From Spirogloea muscicola (lineage: Eukaryota > Streptophyta > Zygnematophyceae > Spirogloeales > Spirogloeaceae): a DNA stretch of 57,388 bases. Where the stretch lies: NCBI GenBank assembly GCA_009602725.1, contig WELB01000057.1, positions 189,302 to 246,689 on the forward strand. Direction: 5' to 3'. Shown in pieces: positions 5,080 through 57,388 of the stretch. The notes below the pieces were generated by a model. It did no database searches. It was not told the DNA's origin and worked only from the letters and a program-made list of their open reading frames with translations. The position numbers and the translations under genes were made by a program. The number at the start of each line of letters is the position of its first letter. Within the stretch, counting starts at the first letter, position 1.

Positions 5080-6401
5080 CTACTTCTTGGCGAGGCCGCG
5101 GCGGGCCATCACTCGCTTGTGCGCGACCGCAAAATCCTCCTCAGAAGGCTCGTGCGCAGCGGCACCGCCCCGCCGCTTGCCCTCCCGCTTGCCCTCGGGC
5201 TTGCCGTACTTGGCAGCGAGCGCTGCCACGAGCTCCTCGCCGCGCTGCCCCTGCCGGCTGCGAATGAGTGCCGCGAGGTCTCCCTGGGAGCTGCCATTGC
5301 CGTCCCTATGCGGCAGTTCCCATGTGGTAATCTCAGCAATGACACAGCAATTCGCTGCATGTGTAACTTGACCTTACTGTTACAACAACATCATTTGTCA
5401 GACCAGCAAAATAGGAGCCCAGCTTGAAAGCAAGTGGAGTGTAAGACGTCTATCTTGGCGCCTGACCTTCTGGCAGCCGGCTTCAGTGGAGACTCTGGTG
5501 GAGGCCCGTTTTTGGCAACCCGCTGGGCCCATCGGTGGTATGCTTTGCGCTCCGGAAGCTCGCCTGTCTCATGCAAGTAGCACCAGCGTGAGAGTAAGGC
5601 TGGCAGGCCAGGACCTTGCCGCCAGCCCCACAGCCTCAAAGCACTGAACAGTGCAAAGCCTTGCATGGACGGTGGTGTCATCGAAAGCTCGCCTTCAGCC
5701 ACGGCGGCGTCTAGGATGGTCATGAAGCGGTGGCAGTCGGCGTCACGGGAGCACAACATCCACGCCATCACCCTAAGGCCAACACCGCGCAGCAGGCCAT
5801 CATTGCATTTCAGTGGCGAAGCTTCGCCAGGTGCTGGTCAGAGTGGCCGCCTTAGGCCGGCCACTCGCGGATCTGCCAAGCCTGCTCGACCTCCCAGCGG
5901 CAGGACGCTGCCATGAGATGCCTCACATGGCCATGTTGCCTTTGAAGCGCCGATACAGCTGCTTGAGATCGGCCGTCTCCTCCACCGAGCCGCGGTACTC
6001 GGCCTCAAAGGCCACTATGTCATCAGCCGAGACCTGCAGGTTGCAAGGACCCAATTTCCCGCGTCAACCCACTAGTTGGCGATAGGTGATGCACCACAAT
6101 TCTTGCGTGTGTTGGAGGCGCGTGCCGCACCTTCTTGAAGATGTTGCGGTAGAACTCGTACAGGCTGTCAAACGCGGCGCCCGAGAGCTCCTGCAGATTG
6201 CATGACGCCGGGGGGTGTCATCCACAGCAATAACAGGTCTCGGGCTTCTGCGAGGACGGCGGCAGTGGCGGCGCACTGTCTGGCCGCAGGCGCTCACCGC
6301 ATCGTCCAGGCTGCCAGTCTGGTCGTAAATGCGCCGCCGCTCGGCGTCGCCCAGCACGGCAAAGACCTGCTGCAGGCTCTGGAAGTTCTCCTTGGCGGCC
6401 T

Positions 6402-6438
<37 letters not shown>

Positions 6439-6915
6439 TGGCGGCCTCAGTGACGACGAACATGCTGCGACGCCACAAAACGGCACCGAATGCGCAGGCA
6501 AGCCTTGCAGAGGCTGCCAGAGGGATGCGCACGGCGTCGCCTGGGTTCTTGTCGGGGTGCAGACGCAGCGCCAGCCGGTGGTATGCGCGCCGGATCTGCT
6601 CTGCCGTCGCGCCGCGCTCCACGCCCAGCGCCTGCATGGCACGCCGCTGCGGCTGTGAATCTCTGCTGCGGAAAGTGCTGCCATGTCAAGAGCCAATTGG
6701 GCTGGGCGCCCTTGTAGCCTTGCCTGATAGAGGTCCTTGCCGCCAAGCGGGCGGGGCGCCGCGCCTCCGTCCCTGTCTTCGCCCGCCGCGGGGCCGGCGC
6801 CGCCGCCGGCGTCCTCCTCGCCCTCCTCCCGCCGTTGCGGCCCCTCCTCCTCGTCCGCAGCCACGGGCTCCGCCGCTTCTGCTCTCCTCTTGCGCTCTGC
6901 CCTCCTGGCGGCCAT
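5080..6915 (-). CDS. DNAJC9: DNAJC9/plant J6-type J-domain co-chaperone, 8 exons, complete
   Basis: J-protein that would stimulate Hsp70; the human orthologue DNAJC9 is a histone H3-H4 co-chaperone, so a nuclear role is inferred. Exons: 6915-6724, 6631-6533, 6399-6298, 6190-6131, 6033-5927, 5772-5693, 5563-5467, 5305-5080; they join in frame to 320 residues. The J domain is at about residues 61-130 with DLYQ-ALGV, the HPD triad at 89-91 and RRRIYDQTGS. Next come the family's YRNIFKK, the FEAEYRGS segment, RRFKGNM and the C-terminal block ALIRSRQGQR...ALAAKYGK. The chain ends EEDFAVAHKRVMARRGLAKK, close to the plant J6 ending. The N-terminal 60 residues are Arg/Glu/Gly-rich and variable. Introns 1 (6723) and 6 (5692) need GC donors. 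A (GA)n tract lies just upstream. Confidence 0.9.
6402..6438 (+). repeat. (GGC)n trinucleotide repeat at a splice acceptor
   Basis: About 12 GGC units lie immediately upstream of exon 3 of the J-protein gene. On the transcript strand this is a (GCC)n run occupying the place of the polypyrimidine tract, directly before the acceptor AG at 6401-6400. Confidence 0.9.
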
Positions 6916-7039
6916 TGGGCTGCCTCGCTGTGGACGTCTGCGCTGCGCTTGCCCGCCTCCGGCGACTGGGCGGCGAGCAGTGCACGGGCAAGCCGGCAGC
7001 CGGTTGCCCGGCGCGAGCGCGAGGGAGAGAGAGAAGGGG

Positions 7040-7040
<1 letters not shown>

Positions 7041-7136
<96 letters not shown>

Positions 7137-7146
7137 NGAGAGAGAG
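7041..7146 (+). repeat. (GA)n microsatellite in the J-protein 5' region
   Basis: About 50 GA dinucleotides with one N at 7137, 125 bp upstream of the J-protein ATG. For the minus-strand gene this is a (CT)n tract, as often seen in plant core promoters, but a promoter role is only inferred. Because of this tract, long Ser-Leu and Arg-Glu frames are open on both strands; I do not regard them as genes. Confidence 0.95.
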
Positions 7147-7230
7147 CGCGCGGGAGAGCGCGGGAGCGAGCGCGCGGGCGGGGGAGGGAGGGGGGTCACG
7201 CGGGGACTCGGGCTGTGCTTCTCGCGCTCC

Positions 7231-7263
7231 GGTTGGGGGTTCGAATCCCAACCCTGGCGCCAA
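7231..7263 (+). other. tRNA 3'-half-like sequence (B-box), probable SINE remnant
   Basis: A GGTTCGAATCC B-box/T-loop core is followed by a CCTGGCGCCA end resembling an acceptor arm with CCA. The T stem does not pair fully and no D arm or anticodon arm precedes it, so it is not a functional tRNA gene. It fits the tail of a tRNA-derived SINE. A related reversed motif is near 11537-11565. Confidence 0.35.
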
Positions 7264-7408
7264 AACCGCCGCTGCTCAATGTTGCTGCCGGTGTCAAGCA
7301 ACGCTTGTATTGTGAGATGGAGTTGCTGAGTGGGAAAAGGGCTACTGAATAAAGCTCCGTATTTGCCTAGCCCTGTTGCTCCGCCGATGTAATTCTGAAC
7401 CCCTTCTA

Positions 7409-20693: not shown

Positions 20694-23600
20694 TCACCAC
20701 TTTGCGCTGAGGTGCTCCAGGTGCTTCAATCTCTTGTTTGCGTGCTGATCAGGAGATCTGGACCCACCAATGACTGCCGTGAGATTTTGCTGACAGTTTG
20801 CTCTCTAAACATCTAAATTTTGCTCGTCCTTGTCACCATGTGCTTCTGGTACATTCGGCCAGATCTTTGTTGGCCATCTTTTTCCTCAGAAAAAAGCTGA
20901 CGACCTGAGGACTCTCATGAAGGGCTCCACTTGCACCGCTATCTACTCAAAAGGCAACCCAGGGCACAGCATCAAACAGCTACACGAATGGCTCCGGCAG
21001 AGCACCCTCACCCAGGCAAGAGGAATGATGCTTTTGCACGTAATGCATGCTCCGCAGCCTGAAAAGGATAGCACAACCACAATAGGAGTTGAGACGTCAA
21101 GTGTGAAGTGGAGTCCTAAGGACCTCTCTCAAGTTCTTCTTTGCAAAGCCTGCACCTCCTTCACAGTAACCAGCTCCTGCCGCAAGACAATGCTTCAGGC
21201 AGTACTCTAAGCAACCATTGCGCACTGTCCCAAAGGCTGTGGTCTTGTGCTCAGCATCGCAGACATGACTAGAGCAGGCTCTGCTAGCGTAGCTGCAAGT
21301 ATGCCCCTTTGTCACTCTGGTAGCAGGTAAACAATAACCAAGAGCAATTCCTGTTGGAATCTTTGTAGCAGGCTTGATCATGCGGCTGACATGCAGTGGA
21401 ACTGAAGATGAGCTTCTCAGTTCACAAAATACATAAAAGAGTTGTTCATCACAATTACCGTGTGCATGGCGGCTTCTCTAGATGGGCCGCTACCAAATGA
21501 CAAAGGCGTTCCAGCAGCTTCGATCTGGATAACTATGTGGTTCTGGAGGTGAGGCGGGGGAGGAAACTCCCTGTAGAGCAGCTCGATTCCCCTACTGGCA
21601 AACTGCAAGTATGAAGCAAGCACAATCATGACATTAGACAGTTAATAGGGTGCTGAGGTATATATAATCATCGTACTGCTCAAAATGTGAGCGTGTGAGC
21701 AAATGATCAGATGAAAGCATGCATACAAAGAGCACTGCACAGTGCAGACAGTACAACAATCCCAAGCAACAATCAACTTAACTATCTGACATCAAAGAAG
21801 TGCTACTGCTAAGGGGTTCACATGCAGCTCAAGATTTTGCAAGCTCTTCAAATCAAGCAATCAGCGCAAATCACAATCATACAACAATGGAGGGACTTTA
21901 CCTGTTTCTCAAGCTCCTCGACTAGAGGAGATCTGACAGCTTGCTTCCCTGGGCCAGCAAAACTAGGAGGTGGATGATCACCTTCACCAATGGGCCAAGG
22001 AGGTCTCAACCAAGCATTGCTGGGGAATGCATCAGGAGGCCTCTCTTGGGTCTGCGGTCTGTGAACAGCAGTGCCCCTTGGTGCTCCATTGGCATGCATT
22101 AGTGGTGCACTTCCAAGTGGTGGCCTTTGAGATGGCCCAAAGCCTAGACCTAGACTAAGCATGGGTGCAGCTCCTTCAGCAGGAGGCTGACCAATAAAAC
22201 CAGCTGGCCTCATTCTAATCCCGCCGTTGTTGACCTGCGCTGCTCCAAGATGCAGCCCTAAGTCGAGGTCACGCACGCCACCCAACACGAGTGCGCCGTT
22301 CTGGTGACCATGACCTTCCTGCAACCTCCTGGGAACAGCACCTGCACTGAAAGCACTCTCTGGCTCGCTGGCAGCTGCTAAGGGTGGCTCTGCGGCCCTG
22401 CCAGTAGGCAAGAAGTCACAAGGCCCCATTGCCTCCAACTTGGGCTGAGAGGGGCCACCTATGCTCCTGGCAACTGCTTGAAGGACTTGCTCGGCAGCGT
22501 GGTGCTTGGCTTCCTTCCTGGACCTGCCAAACCCCTTTCCAAGCACCTGCCCAAACGCATCCACCTGCAATGACAAGCAACTGTAATGTGAACACTCAAT
22601 GCCCTGACCACAATGGAAGGCCTCAAGGAGCAGCTCTGTAACCTCACGCAATCCCTTGGCAGCTGCAAATGAAGCGTGCCAGCCTTGGCTTCAATGACCA
22701 CTGTGTTATATCTTCCACAATGAGCAGCTCGCTCAGACTGTCTCCTATGTTGATAGAGGCCTTAACGTTGACCTCCAAGAAAGAGAGAAGGCGCGCGTTG
22801 CCACCAGAAGGAGCCACCAACGTCCACATCCCTTCCCCTTGTCCATGACATAGACCTCAATACTAACTCCTACAACTTACACGATCCCTCATTATCAACC
22901 AGATGCAAATAACCTCTGTGCAAAACACAACTTCCTGCCTGACATCCTCAACGCAGATTGCAAGGCAGAGTCCAGGAAATTTGTGCATCCCTTGCATTGA
23001 TTTGTTACTCCATGTTGACACAAAGCTCTGCTTACGACCTCTGTAAGCTAGAGCATTCTTTTACGTGCAGATACCATTGACCCTTGCCATATCCTTCTGC
23101 TACCCTATGACTGCCCCACTTGTAGTAGCTAGCCTCTTACCTCCATACGAAACCCAGGTTTTGCTGGTTGCTTTGGAAGCAGTCTGTAGTCCAACTGCCC
23201 ACAACATTGGAAGAATCATCCATCAACTCAAGCAATATAAGCACAAGAGGGCAACCTTGTCACATGCGATTCCATTAGATCAACACCTGAGCCGCCTTGC
23301 AAGGTTCTCTATGTATATGCATCCTCTTACTGTATGCTCTCAAGAGTCTACAGCATTCCTAGTGCTTGAATAACAAAATCAGGACACTCTGAGCACCAAA
23401 ATTGATAGCTAGGAAAAAGCTGCCCAACCGTGACCCACAATGACCTGTTTGTGACAAAGTACACGGAGAGACAAGGATGGAAGGCTTCAAGAATATGCAT
23501 GCGCTCACCTTGGCCTGTATTCTCTGGGCGATGGAGTTGAGAAGGTTGACGGATCCTTGAGATGCGGCCTTGCTGTTGGTTGCTTTGAATTCACGAAGTG

Positions 23601-26600: not shown

Positions 26601-28119
26601 CAAGGGTGCTGTAAGTAGACATGACAGACCACAACTACGTACTGGAAGCTTAAGGGTTGCTCACTTCTGGCTACAGTGAGTCCGCAACTGTGGCTACAGT
26701 GAGTCCTTGGGAAAGAGAATGAACAAAGAGAATGACCCCATGGCAGAACGATGGGAATGGCCAAGCTGAGTGCTTACAGTAGGATCAATGCGCGTGAGCA
26801 CCAGCTGCTTCTCAGGCAGCCGAATAATGGGCCTGAGGATTGGTAGTGTTCCATCATTCACAGGCTGAACAACCTCCGAGTCTGCCTTTATGATGTGGCC
26901 ATTGTCCTCAATCTGGTCATTCTCGCTGTACTGCTTCAAGAGTGCGCGATCACCTTGAAGGCGAAGCAACTCACCCTCCAGCGCTGCTTGCTTAGCCTGA
27001 TCAGACTCAGCCCTAATCTTCCTCTTAACATTTTCGATCTTGTCATCAAAACCTTTTGCTGCATTTGCCACGAGGAGCGTCTCGTCAAGGTCGAGTACCA
27101 GGCCCAAAGTACGAGTGTTCAACAGCGACAAAGTGGTCGCATACAGCCCCACTTTGAAGACGTATCCCCAAAACTGGGGGCGCTGATCGTCAGGATTGCT
27201 AGGTGGCACAGGAACAAGATGGACTTCTCTCTCCTCGTCCAAGAGTGCCACTGCTGTCTGCAATCAGGTACATTCATTGTCTGAAGTTAGGCACGTGATA
27301 GTGCGTACTGTGGTAGATCAGCATTGACCAGCTAATCCTTTAACTAGGTCCTTACTGGCAGAATCATGCTGCTGTATCACTGAGCGAATTTCTCGACCAG
27401 GCCCTGAGTCTTAGCAGAAGCCAGCAACAAGCAGCGCAAAGCATACTAGAAGATCCTCTACCCTGATGAGGACCCTTTATGAAGTCTTCACAGGCCAACA
27501 ACTGGCCACCAACCGAGCAGGAGCAAGCAACACCAACTTTGACGACAAGAGTGCATAACTACCTCACACCAACTTTTAGGACACGCAACCGTAGACCACT
27601 TTCTGCGGCAGGTTGACATTGGCCACAACCTCTACTGGCAGCAGAAGACAGATAGCATCTGCTGATACGCAGGCCTGTGGCATGTCTTTCTGCTGCGCGC
27701 TCATTACTGTTCGAAAGAAAGATTGCCGCTCGCACTGACCACGCTGCTCGGTCAAGCGGCCATCGTCTGAGCGCTGGCATTCGTGACCTCCTATTGTGTA
27801 TTCAGTTTGGCATAACCCGGTGCTAAGGAAGATTTAGTACCTTTGATTCAGCCTTACAAACGCCGTGCACGAGACCAAGTTCCCGCCACAGCTCAGGCCT
27901 GGAGGCCGTGCTGGTCAGCTTGAAGCACAGGCCCGAGTCGGCAGTCGTGTGCAGGGCGAGTAAGGGCTGCAGCCGGTCACTGGGGGCAGTATAGGAGGAG
28001 ATACGCAGCTGCTGCCGGAAGGCGTGCTTCAGCGCGGCCTGATGCTGGAAGGCGGTGATACGGACGACGCCTAGCGGTCTATCTGCGTCGGCAAGCGACG
28101 AGACAAAAGAGGTCTCCAT
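20694..28119 (-). CDS. CPL1: CPL1/FIERY2-type RNA polymerase II CTD phosphatase, 14 exons
   Basis: Nuclear phosphatase acting on the polymerase II C-terminal repeat; plant CPL1 also acts in stress signalling and microRNA processing. Exons: 28119-27841, 27257-26778, 26576-26366, 26108-25951, 25786-25728, 25626-25515, 25377-25336, 25209-24229, 24037-23968, 23633-23509, 22654-21902, 21602-21459, 21058-21012, 20757-20694; joined length is 1174 residues. The FCP1-type catalytic motif DLDET (Asp149, Asp151, Thr153) is present, as are [33 protein letters not shown] and VDDRLDVW (Asp347-Asp348). The 327-codon exon 8 is a low-complexity linker. dsRNA-binding domain 1 is at about 840-901, domain 2 at about 1091-1153, and NKRLK lies near the end as a likely nuclear signal. 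The starts of exons 8 and 11 use non-CAG acceptors and are the least certain. Confidence 0.9.
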
Positions 28120-45053: not shown

Positions 45054-45880
45054 GGGCGCCGGAAGCTTGACCTCGGGGGCCCTGGGGTGCAGGAACCCTA
45101 GAAGGGGGTTTTAGTCCATGGAGGGGGAGGCCAGGGTTTAAGGACTCTCCCCCGGGCAGGGGCGCCATCTGTGCGCCCCTCCGATCTGGCCCTTAAACCC
45201 AGATCGTGCGGCTCGCGAGGGCCGCGCCGCCAGGTAGTGGGCGCCCCACCAAAACCCCGCCCAGCCTGCTAAAACCCCCCTCCCAACATAGCCCCTCCGC
45301 GAGCTCAGCCAGCCGCCGCCTCCGTCCCTTTCTGCGCAGCAAGCGCCGCCGCTCGAGCGCCCAGCCCGCCAGCGCAGGTGCGGAAGCTCGCCGCCCTTCA
45401 GTCACTCCTCCTCTGCTTCCTGCGCGCGTCTCTCGCCTCGCCTGCCTTCCTCTGCGCGGCGGCAGCGGTTATCGGCGGAGGCTGTGGTTTTGTCGCAATG
45501 GCCTTGGTCGCCGCCTGCGGCGTCGGAGGCCTTCTTCTCCCCGTTCCCTAGCGAGCTCTCTCTGTCGTCATCCACGAGCTCTCTCGCTGCTTGCTCCACC
45601 CTCCTCCCAGCTTCATGGGGCTGCCTCCGGATGCTCGGTTGTCAGTGCTGACCAGGCACGGCGCTGATGTCGCGGCAGGTGAGGACTCGAGGACGTTCCG
45701 ACGTGCGAGGCGGTCACGCGTGACCGCTGAGGACCATGTCGGACGGGTGAGCTCTTAGCGCCATCGCCCCCTCTGTGCCGGCGCGGCTGCCAGGCACCAC
45801 CGCTGGACCGCGCTGCTCGCCAGTCTCAACCTGGGCCCACCTCCCTCGTCCGCAGAGATGAGCCTGTCGCTGATGAGGTC
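45054..45880. promoter_or_regulatory. Shared SAS10/eS12 upstream region with telo-box-like motifs
   Basis: 827 bp between divergent start codons. It contains several sites like the plant telo-box (AAACCCTAA): AACCCTAG at 45094-45101, GGGTTTTAG ending at 45114, AGGGTTTAA at 45133-45141, TTAAACCC at 45193-45200, and CTAAAACCCC near 45269. Telo-boxes are known in plant promoters of ribosomal-protein and ribosome-assembly genes. They cluster on the SAS10 side. Promoter activity is inferred; 5' untranslated exons of eS12 may also lie here (a possible acceptor is at about 45855). Confidence 0.5.
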
Positions 45881-46461
45881 ATGGCCGCCGACAACGACGG
45901 CGAGCCGACTGCCGACGGCGGCGCCGCTGACGGAGGCGGCGGCGGCGCCGCCGTCGCGGCGGCGGGCGAGCCCATGGACACGATGACGGTGCTGCAGCAG
46001 GTCCTGAAGAAGGCGCTGGCGCACGACGGCCTGGCGCGGGGCCTCCACGAGGCTGCCAAGGCGGTGGAGAAGCACACCGCGCAGCTCTGCGTGCTCGCGC
46101 AGGACTGCGACCAGGCGGACTACACCAAGCTCGTCGAGGCGCTGTGCAACGAGCACAACGTCAAGCTCATCCAGGTCCCCTCCGCCAAGAAGCTCGGCGA
46201 ATGGGCTGGCGTGAGTTCCCCTTCCTGCGCGCTCCCTCTCCCCGCCCTCTCGCAGCGGCAGCGGCGCCCATCCTGGCCATCAGCCTGCAGCCTGAGTGCC
46301 TGCTGACAGTAGCTGGTGTGTTGGGGTTGCGGCAGCTCTGCAAGATCGACTCGGAAGGCAAGGCGCGCAAGGTCGTCGGCTGCTCCTGTGTGGTTGTGCG
46401 GGACTACGGCGAGGAGACGGAGGCGCTGAACGTGCTCCAGGAGTATCTCAAGAGCAAGTAG
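45881..46461 (+). CDS. RPS12: 40S ribosomal protein eS12 (RPS12), 2 exons
   Basis: Small-subunit ribosomal protein of the L7Ae/S12e fold, cytosolic. Exons 45881-46210 and 46336-46461 join to 151 residues. Family text is clear: [59 protein letters not shown], then [20 protein letters not shown] and a Lys-rich end. The first 30 residues are Gly/Ala/Asp-rich and longer than in animals. ATG 45881 was chosen because it opens the frame. An earlier ATG at 45858 is out of frame and would make a short overlapping upstream frame, which could affect translation. Confidence 0.96.
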
Positions 46462-46833: not shown

Positions 46834-49800
46834 TCACGTGCGTGGCGGGCTAGTTCGCCGGGGCGTCGCAGAGACGGAGCTCTGGTTCGACCACCCCGGC
46901 GTGCTCTGCACAGAGCTCTGGTTGGACCACGTGGACGAGCGGCCCGGCGCGTAGTCCTCTAGTTCCGCCCACCGTGCTTCCCGAAGGGCCGGCACGCGTG
47001 CAGCAATCGTGTTGTACAACCGCAGGTACCTGGAAGTCTCAAGTGGCAGCAATAACGTTATCCATTCTGGGTCAATAAGGGTGTGGTTTGATGGTTTGAT
47101 AATGGCAAGGGCTAAGCTGACTAAGTAGCATCTAGTCATCTGAGCGATTAAGCACTTCAGCAAGCGCCCACTTCAGCGAGTCGTTGTCAGAAGTGGGACA
47201 GGCAAATGGTAAGTGACAATTCATGCTTACTTCTTGACTGTCTTGGTGGGGTCAAGCGTCCCGTCACGCTGTGGGGCGATGGCGAGCCGGCGTAGCATCT
47301 CCGGCACGACAACGAGCCGGCGCCGCAGCTCCTCGCGTGGCAAGCCTTCCAGCTCAGCTGGCGGCGGCAGCACAGCCACCAAGACCTGCTCCGTGCTGCC
47401 CAATGAGCTGCGGCGCTCCACGCGCGCCTTGATGACCAGGTCGAGTCGGGACGTCGCGCCGGCCTTCACCTGGCCCTGCGGTCGGGCGGCGCCCTTGGTG
47501 GTCAGCGTGATGACCGTCCACGCAATCTTTTCGCCCTGCAGCACCGCCGGGAAGCCTGCGACACCTTGCCGGCCACCAACAGGAAAGAGCTCCCGCGACA
47601 CGCCATCGCCCTCGTTAGGGACCGCGGGGCTGGCGCCGGTTGACGTCCACTTGGATGCATAAAGCAGCGGCTGCTCCTTGGCTGACGGCCGTGCGGCACC
47701 ACCATCGCCATTGCTCACACCCACATCCCGTTCAGCAGTGCTGCCCACGCCGATGCCAGCGCCACTACCAGCGCCGGAGGCGCCCCCACCAGAAGCCATG
47801 CTCCTGACCTTGGATGGCGTCGACTGCACCAACAAGGACTGGTGCTGGTCAGAGGAGCCCTCCACTTGCACAGCCTTTCATTGTCTCGTAAAGGACTGAC
47901 TACTTGACTTTCGGGGGTCTTGAAGTCAAGGGATCACTAGCAATACAGCGTCAAGCGCAGCCGAACATTCAGATCATGAGCTCGATCACTGAAAATCTGG
48001 CTAAAAATAATGTTCCTACTCACAACCCTCCCACATGTATTGGTTTGCAGGCCAGGGAAGACCACAGCCAACGACAGAATCACCTGCTATTATACAACTT
48101 TCTTAGTGCAGAAAAGCGGCAGCAGCTCGCAGGCTTGCTGCCAAGCAACCTGGAACAAGTCCCGGAAGAGCGATATAGGTGGCAGACACAGAAGGACCTC
48201 GAGGTGGGGCCTCACATCAATGACGTGCTGTGTCTCAAGAATGCACTGCTCGCCGGTCGGTCGGTCCAGCGGGAGCAGCGACGGGATGACCTCACTCAGC
48301 AGCGCCAGCAGCTGTGCACGGTGGCTGTCTTGCAGGCCCGGCCGCTCTGCTGCCTCCAGCTTCATTGCCTGCACCCGCATGACATGCGACAGTGGCACAA
48401 TATGTCTTGGCTCCGGGTCAAATCGAGTTCAAACATTATAATTAGTGTCCATTACATTTGTAGAATTATCTCAGAGCATTACAGCTCGACCAGGTGCTCT
48501 GTTGGCAGTGGACTTGGCTTGGCATCAAGAGCATGAGCACAAGGCAGCTGCTGTTGTCGGTCCTCACCTCAACCTTGAGGAAGATCTCCTCGAGCTTGAG
48601 GAGAGAGGCCACTCGCGCGTCCTCTGCGGCTGTGGGCAGGCTCTTCAGCGGCAATGCAGTTTGATCCTTGGCCAAAATTGTCACGTCTTGCTTCATGAGC
48701 TGCAGGACCTGGCAAGACAATCACACCAGAACAAATTCATTGCAACCTATGCCAGCTACCCATCCAAGATATGGTGTTAAATCTTGACTGACGATGAACT
48801 TCGGTGGCTGCGACTTACAGGGATGGAGGTAGCTACAAAGGACACATAGATACACTTGCAAGCGTTTGAGATAAAAAAGTCATATGGCCAGCAAGTCAAG
48901 GATTTCTATCTAGCAAATGTGAGTGCCATTGTGGGTAGCAGCCGCTCTCTGCATTCCACTAAGCACACCTTGCGCTTCTTGTGTTCCACTGACTCCAAGG
49001 CCGTGCGTACACGCTGCGCTGCCGCTATATCCTCCGCATCCTCAGTCGCAAGTGTGCTGGCCACATCCTGCAGTATTCATGAGACATCCAAACTGAAACA
49101 TTCACGTCGGGCAACCTTGGACGACCCTACTTCCTGAAGCTGACGGGCACAACTGCTATTGCAGCTTGGCAGACAGAAGAGGCCACCTGCTTGTCATATG
49201 ATGCTGCCACACTTCCTCCGCCTGCATGAATGTCATGGACGACAGATTGCATCAAAGAGAAGCTGCAATGCTGACCTTGAGATGCTGGATGTGCTGCATG
49301 TACGACTGCTTGGTGTAGTCAGACAGGAGTTGGCCTAGGACGTCGGTGGCCGTGACAACTGGGGGTGCGGCGCCTAGCCCTGCCAGCCATCCGTGCATGA
49401 TGGACGTCGTCAGCAACTCCAGGTCGCCGGGAACTTCCTCCTGCCACGCATGCCCATTCCAATGCTCGCTTGGTGCAAAGTCAGTCCTGTAATGTCTGTA
49501 ATGAACATGGCATGGGCGTCCAGACAATAAATTGCTGCACTTTACACTCACATGACATGCACGACCAAGAAGCCAGATCTCAATGGTCTGCTTCTGAGGG
49601 GCTAGTGTAGCAGAATTCGAAAGCAAAATGGATGCAGATAGCTGAGAGCTTAGCAGCAGGGAAAGATGCAGGACCTGGGTAGGACAATGTCACACTGACC
49701 GCTGTGTGGTTGAGGGAGAGGAAGTGGAACGTCTCTGCAAGCCACTTGCGGATGCGCCGCCGCAGCTCTTCCTGCTCGCCGTGCGCGAACACCGCCGCCA

Positions 49801-52800
49801 ACTCCCGGTTGCCAATTGCAAAGGTGCGCGCCTCCTGGCTGATCTCCTTGAGCCTCTCGGTTGCCACCTGCCGCCCCCCTTGCTCTGTGCCCTGATTGTG
49901 GACAGCCAGCAAAACACAAAGCAACAACATAAATGTGTGTAATGTCATATCAGACATATTAGACTAGCAATCTAGCAGAGTACCTGCTACTCACCATACC
50001 CAACTTTGACAATGTTTAGCATTTCGGGAATTAGCTACAAGTCCAAGAAGAGGAGGGAGTGCATGGTAAAGTAGCCGGCAACAACAGGCAAGTGGTACCT
50101 TGGGCGTTTCGGCCCCACTGCGGGCCTCTACATCATTGGCCGTCACGGCCGCTCCAGCCACGGCCTTCCAGGAGAAGGATGAAAGTTTTGCAAAAGCCTT
50201 GTGGCCAGTCCCAGAAAGGTTCACGCGAAAGGGCAAGACTGGCCGCAGGCCCTCAGACAGCGGGTGCTCTGGCGAATGCCTTGGCGACTCGCTTGGCGTT
50301 GTGGATCGACTGTTGGAGCGACTGCTGGAGCGACTACCCCACCGGCTGCTTGGCCTGCTCCGCACTGGTGCGACGAAGCCGTTCTCCAGGAAGTGCTCAA
50401 TGGAGTGAACCTGCAGAGAGGCGCCAGCACTTGGGCTTCAGTTGAGGCGTTTACATCAATGCCAGGTGAGACAGCAAGCTATCTCTCAGAAGCTCAAGCA
50501 GCATATGAACAGGCGCCCTCCAGATTAGCTTCTGCGTGCAATAAAGCGTGGCCTAGGATCGCATCGCACACTTCTGCTGCCTCACAATGTTGGGTGCAAT
50601 AATGCATGGTGTGGGTTTGCATCGCCCACTTCTGTTGCCCAATCATTATTTCTTCAAGTCAACTAGGAGGAGCAGTGCAACATCGGAACTAAAACTGAGT
50701 GGCAGATGAAAGTGTGACGAGGAAAGAAGCCTATCAAGGGAAAGTTAGAAGCAATCAGCTTAATAGATTGAGGGGGCGCAGCGATCGACCCTGGTAGAGG
50801 ACAGCTCCGGTGACTTGGCGAGGAGGGCCTTCAGGTAGAGAATGCGGATGCGCGCCACGAGCATCGTGTCCAGCAGCCGTTTGGGCTCCATCCTCTCCAG
50901 AAAGGAAAAGACTGCATCGCGGAGCTCTGCGAGCATCTCGCTCTCTCGCATCGCACGCTCCGCCTTGACAACTGCTGCCAGCACCTGCCACAAAGACCAA
51001 GAATGAGCAAGTCGGCAAGTTGGCCACAGCATCTACATGATGCTGCTCCGCAGGAATTTATAGCAGTGCAACAATCTGCTCTGCTGCAGCAGATCATAAA
51101 AGTTTAGCATGCCAAGGGACAAGCGCACACATGATGTAGCACGCACACATGATGACACGCTAACATAATTCCACTGAGCAGTCAACACTGATAGAAGTAG
51201 CTGTTCAGGTCATAATGAAGCTGTGACCTTGTTCAGATACTCACCAGCATAAGCATCTTGTTAGCTTGGTCGGCAGCGGCAGCCACGCTTCCATACTGGT
51301 CCGGGTTGAATGCACTCAGAGCCCGAGTGAGGTACTCCCCAGCCGCTGTGGACCTCAGCAGGCGCGGCGTGGAAGGCGCGCTCGTACTGGGCTGGTCATC
51401 AGCTTCGCCATTGGCCTGCACTCCTGCACGACCTTGTGCTGTCTCCAGCATCGCAGGTGGCTCTCTATTTATCATTGGCACCACTGATGGTGTCTCACCG
51501 ACTGTACTTGATACCGGCTCTGCTGCCTGGCTTGAGGTGCTCTTAGATTCGTCTTTGGGATACTGCTGCTCAATGTTGTCAAGCAGCTCAGTGGAAGCTG
51601 CAGCCACCGCAGGCTGGTCGCTTCTCGCGTCTTGTGGCCTTGCTTCTGCCGAGCTCGGCATACGCGTATCAGCTTCTTGCGCTTCGGCAGGTAATGCTGG
51701 TCGTGCGACGAGCCTCTCATTCTCCTCATTCAGGCGCTGCAAGCCGCCATCATGCAGTCCACCAGTCAATGCCACTAGATGGAACAGCTACCGTACTCCT
51801 TAGAATTCCGGATCTGGCATCTCATCAAATAGGTGGCCAATAGCACTTGCATGCTATGTCCGTGCAAGAAGTGACATAGCAAATATAAATGTAGGACTTG
51901 ACACCCATGTGCTGTTCAAACAAAAGGCTTCTAGCTAAATTGCTGATCCGTTGAACCTATCTCCCAAACCCTCTGCATTGCTTACCTCAATGAGCTCATC
52001 CCGTTTGGCCAGCTCCTCCTCCAGGTGAGCAATCGTGACCCGGAGCTTGCCCACTTCCTCTGCAGATGCCGCTTGGTTCGCATCAACGACTGCCGGGGCG
52101 TCCTCTGACGGAGGACGAGCAGCAATTGTACTGGCAGCTGCGAGTGCCTCCGCGAGCTGGCGCTCCAGGTGCTGCACACGAACCTGAGCAGCAATGGCCC
52201 ATTGTAAAGATCACAAACCAAAGTCAACATACACCTGGCCTTGAGCCTGGAAAGGTGAGAGTATCACCATGTTGACCATCTAAGGCTTGTCAGTCGACTT
52301 CGACAAAAGAAGCTATTGCAAAGCCTGTCAAAGACGTTCTGACTCCAATTCTTACCTGCCAACATATAGCATCGAGTCCATAACATTAACCAGATAAGAG
52401 GCAGGCTATGAGTGTCAAAGATGACTTCATGAACGCACCTCATTGCTGGCCATGGTCGCCCCGGCAGCCTCCGTCTCCATCACATACTCCACCATCTTGG
52501 CTCGGTGCTCCTCCTCCAGCTGCGACCGCAGCAGGAGCAAGGCCGCTACGTGGCCCTCCTCTGCTCTCCGGGCCTTCTCTGAGGCAGCTGCCAGCTCAGC
52601 CTGCAGCCAAAGAAACACTGGCATGTGTCAAAGCCCTTGCTTTATTTACGTCCTCCTTGCAATCTCCATGAGCAGCACCCAATAACAAAAGCTTACTGTA
52701 GCAAGCCATACAGGAGAATTGAAATATTGTGACTTACAAAGGTTGGCGGTACAACAAGACGGACTTGATGTGTATGATAAGCGTCCTGATTGACAGGAAA

Positions 52801-55800
52801 GAAGCTAGGTGCTGAAAGCAGCTCCAGTAATGACCCTTGCTGTGACCACAGCTCATGCTGACGCCTCTTAAGAGCCACAGCCTGCTTCATGCTGGGCATG
52901 ATGTCCTCTAACCTTAAGACTTGTAGCTCGAGCCTGGTGCCTGTCAACCTCGGCCTTGAGCTCCGAAGAGAACGCCCATGCCCTCTGCAGTTCGTTGAAA
53001 AGCACAAGCGCTTGAGCATCCACGCCCTTGGCCGCCTCCTTGTGACGCAGCATCTCCTGCTGCAGCTCACTCAGCTCCTTCTCTTTTTCAAAAAGGTCAC
53101 GGCGAGCCTCGCTTGCCTGCAATCAACGACAAATTCCAGATTGTCTGTGCAGCATTAATGTGAAAGCCTCTTGAACACGTCCGGCATGACTGTATCTGAT
53201 TGTTTACACTACTAATTGGCTCAAAGAGCAGGTGCTGCCTTTTCATGGATTATAAGTCAACGTTGCAGGACTTGCTCTTCTTAAGCAGCTTAGCCTTGCC
53301 ATTGCCAGGTGTGTTCTCAGACCCGTGATAGTATTCTCTCCTGCTAAGGTACGAGCCTGCCTGCTGCAAACCTACCGCATCGCGCCACTTCTTAACCGTG
53401 TCTTTAGAGCCGAGGCTAATCTCCGCATTGCGGCTGCGTGTGGCAAACCCGAGTGAAGCGATGCTCTCGGGAGTGTCAGTGACTGTTGGGCTGCACGTCA
53501 CAACCAGCAGCGTCTTTGCATCCCCGCCTGCACGCTCAAACAGTTTACCATATGTCCCAAGCTTGCTGTAGGACGGCTTCGAGCTTGACTCATAACACCA
53601 CATTGTCACTTGACCAAAGCATGCTGGTCTTGGAAGAAGCTGGCGGTGTGAGGAGCTTGCAGCTAGGAGCTAGGAGCTGTCTACAAGGGCGTGCAGGGTG
53701 GTGCTTACCGATGCAATCGGAGAGGAGATGCGTGAGCTTGGAGTTGCGGTGCGGCACACGGCTCTTCTTTGCCGCCACAGCCAACAGCACGTCCCCCAGC
53801 CTGCGCAGCAAAGTATCTTACAACTATTAGCTCTAGTCAGTCTAGCGAGACTGTAATGCCTGTAACTCTGACAAAATTCTTAGATTGATTTACACTGACG
53901 ACTTGACACATTCTGCAGCAGGCAAGTGTAGCAAGCTTGCTCAAGTGCCCAGCCATTGGCAGGCCTTGTGACACAAAAAGACTCGTGCAACTTGTCATTC
54001 AGGGTCAATATCTGGCAATTATGCAGGCTACTGTGTGCAGTCAAGGCGATCAAATAGTACATAAGTGGCAGAGGAATCCTAGGACTCTCAGCTTTAGAAT
54101 GCACTTTCAAATTTATTGGCAAATGACCTCCCCATGCATTTCTGTCGTGCTGCTTTAGGCCTCTCCATTGCAATTGGGAGCATCACATCAAAAGGTTTCA
54201 TGTAAAGCTTCACAGGCATTCGACAAAGCGAACACCTGGTAGTCCTCTGCAAAATCAATCAGACGGCGTGCGGTGCTCACGCTGAGAATGCCTTGTTGAG
54301 GTGGAGCGACTCGGTGAGGCGGTCGCCAGATGTCAGCGACTTGGGCAGCCGCTCGCTGCCCGCTAGGTCCACCAGCACCAGCTTGCTGCGGACGGCCTCG
54401 ACGTGCGCGCCGCCATCCTCGCACGTAACCTCAATCGTCACGATGCTGCACGCCGTGGATATGTGTCATAAAACGACGTGTCACAGAGCGCTTTAAATAA
54501 ATCTAACTACCAGAACACGCGACGCTCATTACACTCTGCAACCATGTAAGTTCAACACTCCCGATCACACAAGCAAACTGAGACAGCTGAGACGGTATGA
54601 TTGGGCTACTTACAAAGGGATGAGGAGGCTTACAAGTGAGAACGATTTGCACGGTCAGCCGCGGCAGCGGCACCGGCGCCAGCCGCCCGATTCTGGTGTG
54701 CCGCCTTCAGGACGCGCGCGAATTCGGCAGGCGTAGTGACCACGTCGTGCCGCAGACCCAGGACGACGACTTTGCCATCGGCCTGCAGGATTTCATGGCG
54801 CGGCGCCGTGCCCCTGTCCTGGTGGTGGCGCACAAGCAGGTCTCGGACCTGCGGGGAGAAGCCACACAGGCAACCTCAGGCAGCCACATCAGAATCTCTT
54901 AGACTAAGTAGTGGGGCCTCCATCAACTATCAGCTCACATGGTGCTTAACGCCCTCCAGCTTTAAAATCATACCTGCTCGTTGTGGATCTCCAGGGCGGT
55001 GACTTGGAAGGCATAGCGGGACGACGGCAACCCCGCGGTCGTGTTGGAAAGGTCAAACATCTCGTCAAACGCGCGGTAGAAGAGGCCGCGGTCGTGCGAC
55101 GGGCCCTCCTGCCAACAAGAAAGTCGGAGCCAGCAGTAAGGAGGAAGGGAGACAGGGGAGAGAGTTGCTGCAGCCACAAGGGGTTCCTTTGCTAAGTTGT
55201 GGTCATTGCTGCCGGCCAGCAATGGCAGTCACTGCACACCGCCACATCGATGTCGGGCAGCCCAGACATCACCAGGAGCATTGCAAATCATTATGCGGGA
55301 TCTCGATAACAAATACGACGAGATCTCAATCAGGACCTCAATACCCAAATGCCGGGGTCAGTAAGACGGGTCGCGATTCCGCATCAGGGCTCAGGCAATG
55401 TTTCCAGGTACTAATTATCAAGCTGTCATAGTCAACTTAGGAGGGGCTAAGCACTCGGTTTGCAAGGGCTTCAGGATTAGGAACCACAAGGAGTAAGGGC
55501 CCATTTAATGTGGATGAAATGTGGTGCTTTCACTTGCGGTGCAGCTTCCGCACCATGGTGTGCGACTTGCCGGAGCCCGTGGGGCCGTAAGCGAGGACGC
55601 ATGCGTTGTACCCGTCCATCACCGACTGCACTATCGGCTGCACGTCGGCAAACAGCTCCACTACAACACAATGCGCGGCGGTGTCAGCATCAGCAGACGG
55701 ACGGGTCGGGAGCAGCGCCGCCAGTGGTCAGCCCCTCTTTGTACCTTAAGTACATCTGAAGTGGTAGGAACACGAGGAGAGGAGGGAGGCTGCATTTGCG

Positions 55801-57388
55801 GATTGGCACGCCCACCTTGGCTGACGTGCGGCCCGTACACTCGGTCAAACTCAAAGTCCTTGCGAGCAGCAGCACCGCCGACTGGCTGCGAAATGCGTAC
55901 GGTGTAGTCGTCCGGGAACGACGCGACGGAGGGGCCCTCGTGCTCGAACTGCGGACGCACGCGGGCCCACACTCGCAGGTTGCCTGTACAGCGAAAGGCA
56001 AATGGCAGGCCAGCTGGTGTGCTGAGAGGACAAGCGAGGTGAGGAGGGAAGAAGGGAGAGAAGGCGATGTACAAGAGTAGATAGACATAAAGAGGAGGGA
56101 GAAGCAGGGGGGGGGGGCGAAGAGGCGAAGGGAAGAGGGAGAGAGAAGAAGAGGGAGAAACATTGGAGGCAAGCAACCAACTAAGACAGACGAGGCGAGT
56201 GAGCAGAGGAGGAGGAGGGAAGAGGAAGGGGGAGGAGGGAGGGGGCGGAGGGAGGGAGGGGGGAGGAGGAGCTGAGCTACAAGGGCGCAGGAAGCGGCCC
56301 ATCCTCCACAGCAGCGGCAGCACGGCCGCTGGCGGAGGTCAGCTGCTGCTCACCCTTCATCGCAAGCAGGTCGTTGAAGAGCCGCCGGCGCTCCTGCCGC
56401 AGAGGAGCGATGCGGGCCTCCACCTCTTGCGCTGCCTGGTCTGCGTGCACGCGAGTCGGACCGAGGCTGCCGACACTGAGCGCAGCGAGGCGTGCGGCGC
56501 CGCGGCGCTAGTGGCTGCGGCCGCCCACCGGAGCGGCTGGTTTGGCGAGCTGCCGCGGCCGGACGGTCGGCCTCACCCTGCCGGTCGGTCTTCTCGGCGA
56601 GGGCGCCGAGGAAGAGCGCCAGGCGGCCGAACTTGCTGGCAGAGTACTCGTGCAGCTCCGCCGCCTCGCCGCGGAGCTCCATGCACTCGTCCTTGGCGCT
56701 CTGCAGTCACCAGCAGGTGGGTCAGAGGGGGACGAGGTGGAGGGAGGACGCAGGTCGAGAGGGAGGGCTTATGCGCAGACAAGCTTGAAGACTGGACAAA
56801 GTGCCAACAAGAGCGAGAACGGAAACGACGGGACTTAGGTGGAGAAAGGCCTGAAGCAACAGTGTAGGAGGCTGCTCCGAGATCATGAAGCTTGACGAAA
56901 GCATGGCAGGAGCAGGGGAAGAAGGGGTGTGTTTGGGTTGGGGGGGAGGGCGGTGGAGGGGGTTATCTGGTCATTTAGATATACGGCAGAGATTGTCTGT
57001 GTAGGAGGGGAGAAAGGAGGTAGCTGGGAAGGAAGCTTCGCTTTCATTGAAGGAAGGGAAAGGCGACAAGTGAGGAGAAAGGGGTCGGGACGGAGGGAAA
57101 AGGTAAAGGGGGCTGGAGAGGCACGGAGGAGACAGGGGGGAGGAGGGAGGGGGAGGGAGGGGGAGAGAGATCAGAAGCGCGTGCCAGAGACAGAGAGAGG
57201 GGGGGGGCATTGGCTCCAAAGTTGCACCGAACACCGGAGATGAGGACGGAGCTCAGTGCAGGATCGAGCAGCAGAGGACATGCGAGGCTCACACGCAGCT
57301 TCTCCCGGACAACAGCCACCCGCTCCATGTACGCTGCTGCCAGGCGACGTCGCGCGGGGCTGCCATTGGCAGAAGCTGGCGACGTGAA
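46834..57388 (-). CDS. KAC1: KAC-type kinesin-14 (chloroplast movement kinesin), 5'-partial, 23 exons seen
   Basis: Orthologue of KAC1/KCA (KIN-14A/B), which in land plants anchors and moves chloroplasts through short actin filaments. The gene runs off the right edge. Exons: 57388-57293, 56700-56577, 56440-56354, 55983-55816, 55660-55554, 55108-54974, 54848-54634, 54445-54281, 53800-53709, 53527-53376, 53116-52913, 52600-52439, 52183-51986, 51736-51245, 50984-50790, 50410-50099, 49891-49700, 49440-49276, 49067-48969, 48708-48568, 48368-48216, 47859-47231, 47029-46834; 1492 residues visible. Visible-residue map: coiled coil to about 100; motor [11 protein letters not shown]-loop GPTGSGKS at 184-191, switch I-like ANRSHF, switch II DLAGSER at 337-343, RNSKLT; then coiled coils, [58 protein letters not shown] and the C-terminal [15 protein letters not shown] block. 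Confidence 0.9.
56040..56280 (+). repeat. Homopurine tract in KAC intron 3
   Basis: Long G/A-only stretches (GGGAGGAGG type) on the plus strand, so the KAC pre-mRNA carries a long CU-rich run. A second such tract lies at about 57060-57215 in intron 1. Confidence 0.7.

Follow-up and report, generated by a model that had tools for sequence, protein, structure and literature searches.

KAC is regarded as a kinesin that gave up microtubules in favor of actin. A gene of this type in the genome of the alga Spirogloea muscicola raises the question of how much of the microtubule motor is still in working order in this lineage. The gene lies at one end of the window, by which we mean the whole stretch of contig WELB01000057.1 analysed here (57,388 nucleotides). 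Orthologs of KAC, CHUP1, and PMI1 have been reported in charophyte algae and in none of the chlorophytes covered by the same survey, which lay outside the Trebouxiophyceae (PMC4853393). KAC in charophytes is therefore already known; what is new here is the state of its motifs, with the nucleotide-binding parts kept and switch I broken.

Gene Structure and Relation to Land-Plant KAC

The gene is read from the minus strand and comprises the following features (window positions):

46834..57388, minus: KAC-type kinesin gene, 23 exons, 5' end past the window edge
57293..57383, minus: exon 1, partial, N-terminal coil, with an in-frame Met at 57328; exon readable in the window copy only
56354..56700, minus: exons 2-3, coil and kinesin-14-like neck immediately ahead of the motor
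53376..55983, minus: exons 4-10, kinesin motor domain (Pfam PF00225)
55952-55963, minus: RVRP motif
55563..55586, minus: P-loop GPTGSGKS (GPTSSGKS in the C82 copy)
54636..54662, minus: degenerate switch I AADRANRSH (canonical NxxSSRSH; ANRAH in the C17 copy)
54349..54369, minus: switch II DLAGSER
53731..53754, minus: loop 12 PHRNSKLT, microtubule-facing
51245..53116, minus: exons 11-14, neck coil, coil-like stretch, variable linker, and start of the GEYL block
46834..50984, minus: exons 15-23, KAC C-terminal blocks and C-terminal domain

All 22 introns are of the GT-AG type, and the exons join into a single open frame whose sole stop is at its end; the frame has 1478 codons, which are the readable part of a gene that continues past position 57388, the edge of the window. 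The end of the coil before the head resembles a kinesin-14 neck. Residues 108-428 of the 1478 match the Pfam Kinesin profile over positions 1-326 of 327 (E=9e-78), and with nearly the whole profile covered at this E value the identity of the motor is not a matter of chance. The motor sits in the N-terminal part of the protein and is followed by a long C-terminal region. Its closest solved relatives are KIFC3 (E 6.8e-59) and Ncd (E 1.7e-51), both of them kinesin-14 proteins; they have a C-terminal motor and are not known to carry a KAC tail.

The sequence-only reading of this DNA had called the gene a KAC-type kinesin with the C-terminal KAC blocks already present, and this is supported by comparison with a provisional Arabidopsis KAC sequence. 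The algal protein is collinear with this reference from end to end; the alignment scores 1991, and the best of 20 shuffles -124. Against the same reference, identity amounts to 38/71 in the N-terminal coil, 139/318 in the motor, 34/70 in the neck coil, 65/100 in the GEYL block, 65/114 in the FAIGN block, 49/131 in the next tail block, and 46/122 in the C-terminal domain, with weaker agreement in the linker and the Ser/Arg-rich stretches (24/71, 20/62, and 5/28). As far as the provisional reference allows, the alga probably has in common with KAC1 and KAC2, class V kinesin-14 proteins of Arabidopsis and other land plants, an identical succession of N-terminal motor, kinesin-14-like neck, coil, and C-terminal blocks. 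No KAC sequence turned up in a scan of viral contigs. Kinesin-14 proteins with an N-terminal motor have been grouped as plant-only (PMC1434745).

Just past the 3' end of the gene, and convergent with it, lies a ribosomal protein eS12 gene (45731-46461, plus strand). Elsewhere in the window, all on the minus strand, are a dsRNA-binding motif piece (21851-22690; E=1.5e-4, just below the Pfam cut-off), an open reading frame with VLDLDETLL that has no Pfam match (26697-27263), and a weak DnaJ-domain piece (6067-7275; E=0.0017, below the cut-off), the frame of which also reads a long simple repeat. The dsRNA-binding piece and the VLDLDETLL frame together suggest a gene for a CPL1/FRY2-like CTD phosphatase. 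A plastid contig (C392, 56,897 bases) carries odpB, ndhC-ndhK-ndhJ, chlI, tilS, chlB, and matK; Pfam provided the names of odpB, matK (MatK_N E=7.4e-18), tilS, ndhJ, and chlI, and the others are taken to be ndhC, ndhK, and chlB. The matK gene is not known from Mesostigma or Chlorokybus. Both odpB and ndhJ appear in a list of streptophyte plastid genes that were missing from the chlorophytes known at the time (PMC1781420); ndhJ was later reported in Prasinococcales, where odpB is missing (PMC4194372). The loss of ndhK is reported for Klebsormidiophyceae (PMC4877394), and the retention of odpB and chlI for Zygnema, Staurastrum, and Chaetosphaeridium (PMC1277820). The presence of odpB and ndhJ speaks against a chlorophyte, in which a KAC would have come as a surprise; that of ndhK speaks against Klebsormidiophyceae, and that of matK, along with the triplicated genome, against Mesostigma and Chlorokybus. 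Plastid genes and triplicated genes taken together fit a zygnematophycean streptophyte.

Three Copies and the State of the Motor Motifs

A search of the genome (153 Mb, 471 contigs) retrieved two further KAC copies, on contigs C17 and C82, to which the window copy is 84.9-88.8% alike in DNA over stretches longer than 900 bases. Projected onto them, exons 2-23 use the same splice sites and keep the frame, without a stop or frameshift, over some 1450 codons. Aligned columns agree at 85-100% in these exons and at 57-92% in introns 2-22, which is as far as the comparison extends: the other two copies read N at exon 1 and intron 1, and the sequence upstream of the gene is N in all three.

Much of the nucleotide pocket is conserved. 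The P-loop GPTGSGKS, switch II DLAGSER, and PHRNSKLT that had been claimed for the window copy were all found exactly, by position and on the minus strand. A P-loop of the form GxxxxGK[ST] and DLAGSE are present in all three copies, the GPTSSGKS of C82 still fitting the pattern. Alignment with KIFC3 and Ncd shows that loop 12 and the Asn and Lys of alpha-4 are kept; so are the Arg of switch I and the Glu that pairs with it in switch II, and residues outside switch I are near canonical.

Switch I itself is altered. Where KIFC3 and Ncd carry the NxxSSRSH motif (NEHSSRSH and NERSSRSH), the algal KAC reads ADRANRSH, having changed Asn to Ala, the first Ser to Ala, and the second Ser to Asn, so that R, S, and H alone remain. 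Three of the six defined positions are lost in every copy: C82 is identical to the window copy here, and C17 (L009) reads ADRANRAH in exon 7, a further loss of a serine that is unique among the 31 kinesin loci read. The other 28 kinesin loci found in the genome, which stem from a by-eye grouping of the matches other than KAC, out of at least 95 kinesin matches in all, all keep N, S, S, R, S, and H. The motif lies within one exon in 21 of these and is split by an intron in 7, the upstream exon then ending in NxxS plus two bases. The description of this protein as having a canonical motor core consequently needs to be divided: it holds for the P-loop, switch II, loop 12, and RVRP but fails at switch I, where three positions depart from the two aligned kinesin-14 motors. 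The "recognisable RSH" is there, yet the Asn and both serines that should precede it are gone.

What these substitutions should mean for activity can be gauged from a kinesin-1. The Mg ion and two water molecules are reported to be coordinated by residues of switch I, with the second serine as a ligand of Mg (PMC5498027). According to the same source, human KIF5A S202N lowers the microtubule-stimulated ATPase from 6.77 to 0.35 ATP/head/s (about 19-fold) and is non-motile, while S203C retains 2.00/s and moves at 15 instead of 486 nm/s, about 30-fold slower; both variants co-pellet with microtubules above wild type, and microtubules are still held on glass by the non-motile mutants (PMC5498027). 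The DLAGSE and SSRSH segments have been termed universally conserved (PMC4383081). The disease variants of KIF5A resemble the algal KAC in that the same two serines are substituted, but they are single changes in a kinesin-1, whereas the alga has changed both serines and the motif Asn at once, in a kinesin-14. By this analogy, the algal KAC would probably have little or no motor activity and would be likely to retain nucleotide binding.

Selection on the KAC Copies

The three intact reading frames are under purifying selection. Between copies, dN/dS is 0.14-0.20 in the motor and 0.05-0.09 in the C-terminal domain, rising to 0.36-0.62 in the variable linker and, with few silent changes, to 0.29-0.78 in the coil of exons 12-13. 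Over the whole motor, 26 variable codons change the amino acid and 48 are silent, against 6:39 in three-copy motor segments of other kinesins from the same genome (Fisher p=0.011), a contrast that hinges on the exclusion of one control segment, k7_222-293 (L049, L050, and L051), and nearly vanishes when this is put back. The segment was dropped because the L049/L050 piece seemed to enter an intron; with it retained, the controls pool to a ratio of 0.151, the KAC motor standing at 0.175 and the second half of that motor at 0.116. When the comparison was confined to the matched part of the KAC motor (11:26), the difference from the control kinesins was not significant (p=0.10, or p=0.064 with two-copy controls added), nor was the excess of amino acid changes in the motor over those in the tail blocks of KAC itself (25:78; p=0.13). 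The KAC head is constrained, and the data suggest some additional looseness relative to other kinesins.

Occurrence in triplets extends to other genes. In a grouping by eye, KAC, CHUP1, and 7 of the 13 remaining kinesin groups each have three copies, which lie on separate contigs; of the other six kinesin groups, one has two copies and five have one. The three-copy pattern is as expected of a genome triplication, which is likewise reported in PMC7994812.

The CHUP1 Partner

In land plants, CHUP1 is described as an actin-binding protein on which the actin filaments of chloroplasts depend (PMC4853393), and in Nicotiana benthamiana it is reported to interact with KAC1, the two co-accumulating at contacts between chloroplast and plasma membrane (PMC12481158). 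The CHUP1 C-terminal domain is encoded on three contigs of the algal genome (C13, C140, and C157), as pieces with identities of 43-71% (best E 2.5e-20). The query matches the crystal entry PDB 8wag at 264 of 265 aligned residues, an agreement that does not vouch for the provisional KAC reference. With KAC and CHUP1 each encoded in three copies, both partner genes are present in the alga, and the partner of KAC1 in land plants co-occurs with KAC here. The proposal that the switch to actin-based chloroplast movement came later is weakened by the presence, in the same genome, of a protein that binds actin in land plants (PMC4853393).

A Chloroplast Positioner with a Disabled Head?

In our judgment the algal gene is probably the ortholog of land-plant KAC, its product a CHUP1-linked chloroplast positioner with a head that lacks useful ATP hydrolysis, a reading that derives from sequence comparison. 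KAC and CHUP1 would attach the chloroplast and place it at the cell periphery by way of the C-terminal blocks of KAC. The kinesin-14 head would persist as a folded module, probably still binding nucleotide given the intact P-loop, switch II, and RxRP, and perhaps still binding microtubules through the kept residues of loop 12 and alpha-4. Useful rates of ATP hydrolysis would probably be beyond it, since it has lost the serines with which switch I positions Mg and the attacking water. The near-canonical residues outside switch I, together with the kept Arg-Glu pair, would nevertheless be unexpected in a head that does nothing at all.

Such residues invite the suggestion that this form could have remained an active motor on microtubules. 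Other side chains, for instance the Asn now at the Mg position, could compensate for the lost serines, and the P-loop, switch II, RxRP, the switch I Arg, loop 12, and the kinesin-14-like neck are all near canonical in a motor under purifying selection. We nonetheless regard it as unlikely and the original suggestion as probably wrong: three of three KAC copies lose the Asn and both serines, all of which are kept at each of the 28 other kinesin loci found, C17 has gone one serine further, and single changes at these serines are reported to stop (S202N) or slow (S203C) KIF5A (PMC5498027). A somewhat better case, although still a doubtful one, can be made for a static, nucleotide-locked tether through which microtubules would be linked, at the chloroplast, with the system of CHUP1 and actin. 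It would fit the kept loop 12 and alpha-4 Asn and Lys as well as the enhanced pelleting of S202N and S203C and the holding of microtubules by non-motile KIF5A mutants (PMC5498027); it sits poorly with Arabidopsis KAC1 and KAC2, reported to show no microtubule binding (PMC3472504, PMC3402901). An absence of detectable ATPase is also reported for KAC1 and KAC2 (PMC3472504). That the three copies are decaying pseudogenes is very improbable. Motif changes do vary by copy, in the P-loop of C82 and switch I of C17, and dN/dS reaches 0.78 in the exon 12-13 coil, where silent changes are few, but the roughly 1450 codons are uninterrupted in every copy, splice sites are kept, and in the motor, as in the conserved blocks of the tail, dN/dS stays far below 1. 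The disabled head of a chloroplast positioner remains the reading we prefer.

A Possible Independent Loss of Catalysis

Land-plant KAC probably has a GQTHAGKT-like P-loop and DLAGSEG at switch II, and a switch I that keeps Ser/Thr and loses the Arg. Set against such a land-plant form, the alga shows the opposite arrangement, with the switch I Arg kept and the serines lost. A text search of the literature returned no paper containing the land-plant strings DLAGSEG or GQTHAGKT, and among the matches listed in the literature searched, the titles and abstract openings did not mention switch I of KAC. In this context, we tentatively put forward that KAC lost catalysis at least twice, through the serines in the alga and through the Arg together with P-loop and switch II changes in land plants, the algal head perhaps having become a static microtubule tether. 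Should actual land-plant sequences confirm the loss of the Arg and the kept Ser/Thr, the two losses of catalysis would be independent, and an active motor may have been present in the common ancestor. The half-intact ATP pocket of the algal KAC offers a handle on which step of the motor cycle went first, and this alga lets one ask whether the loss of the motor came before or after the partnership of KAC with CHUP1.
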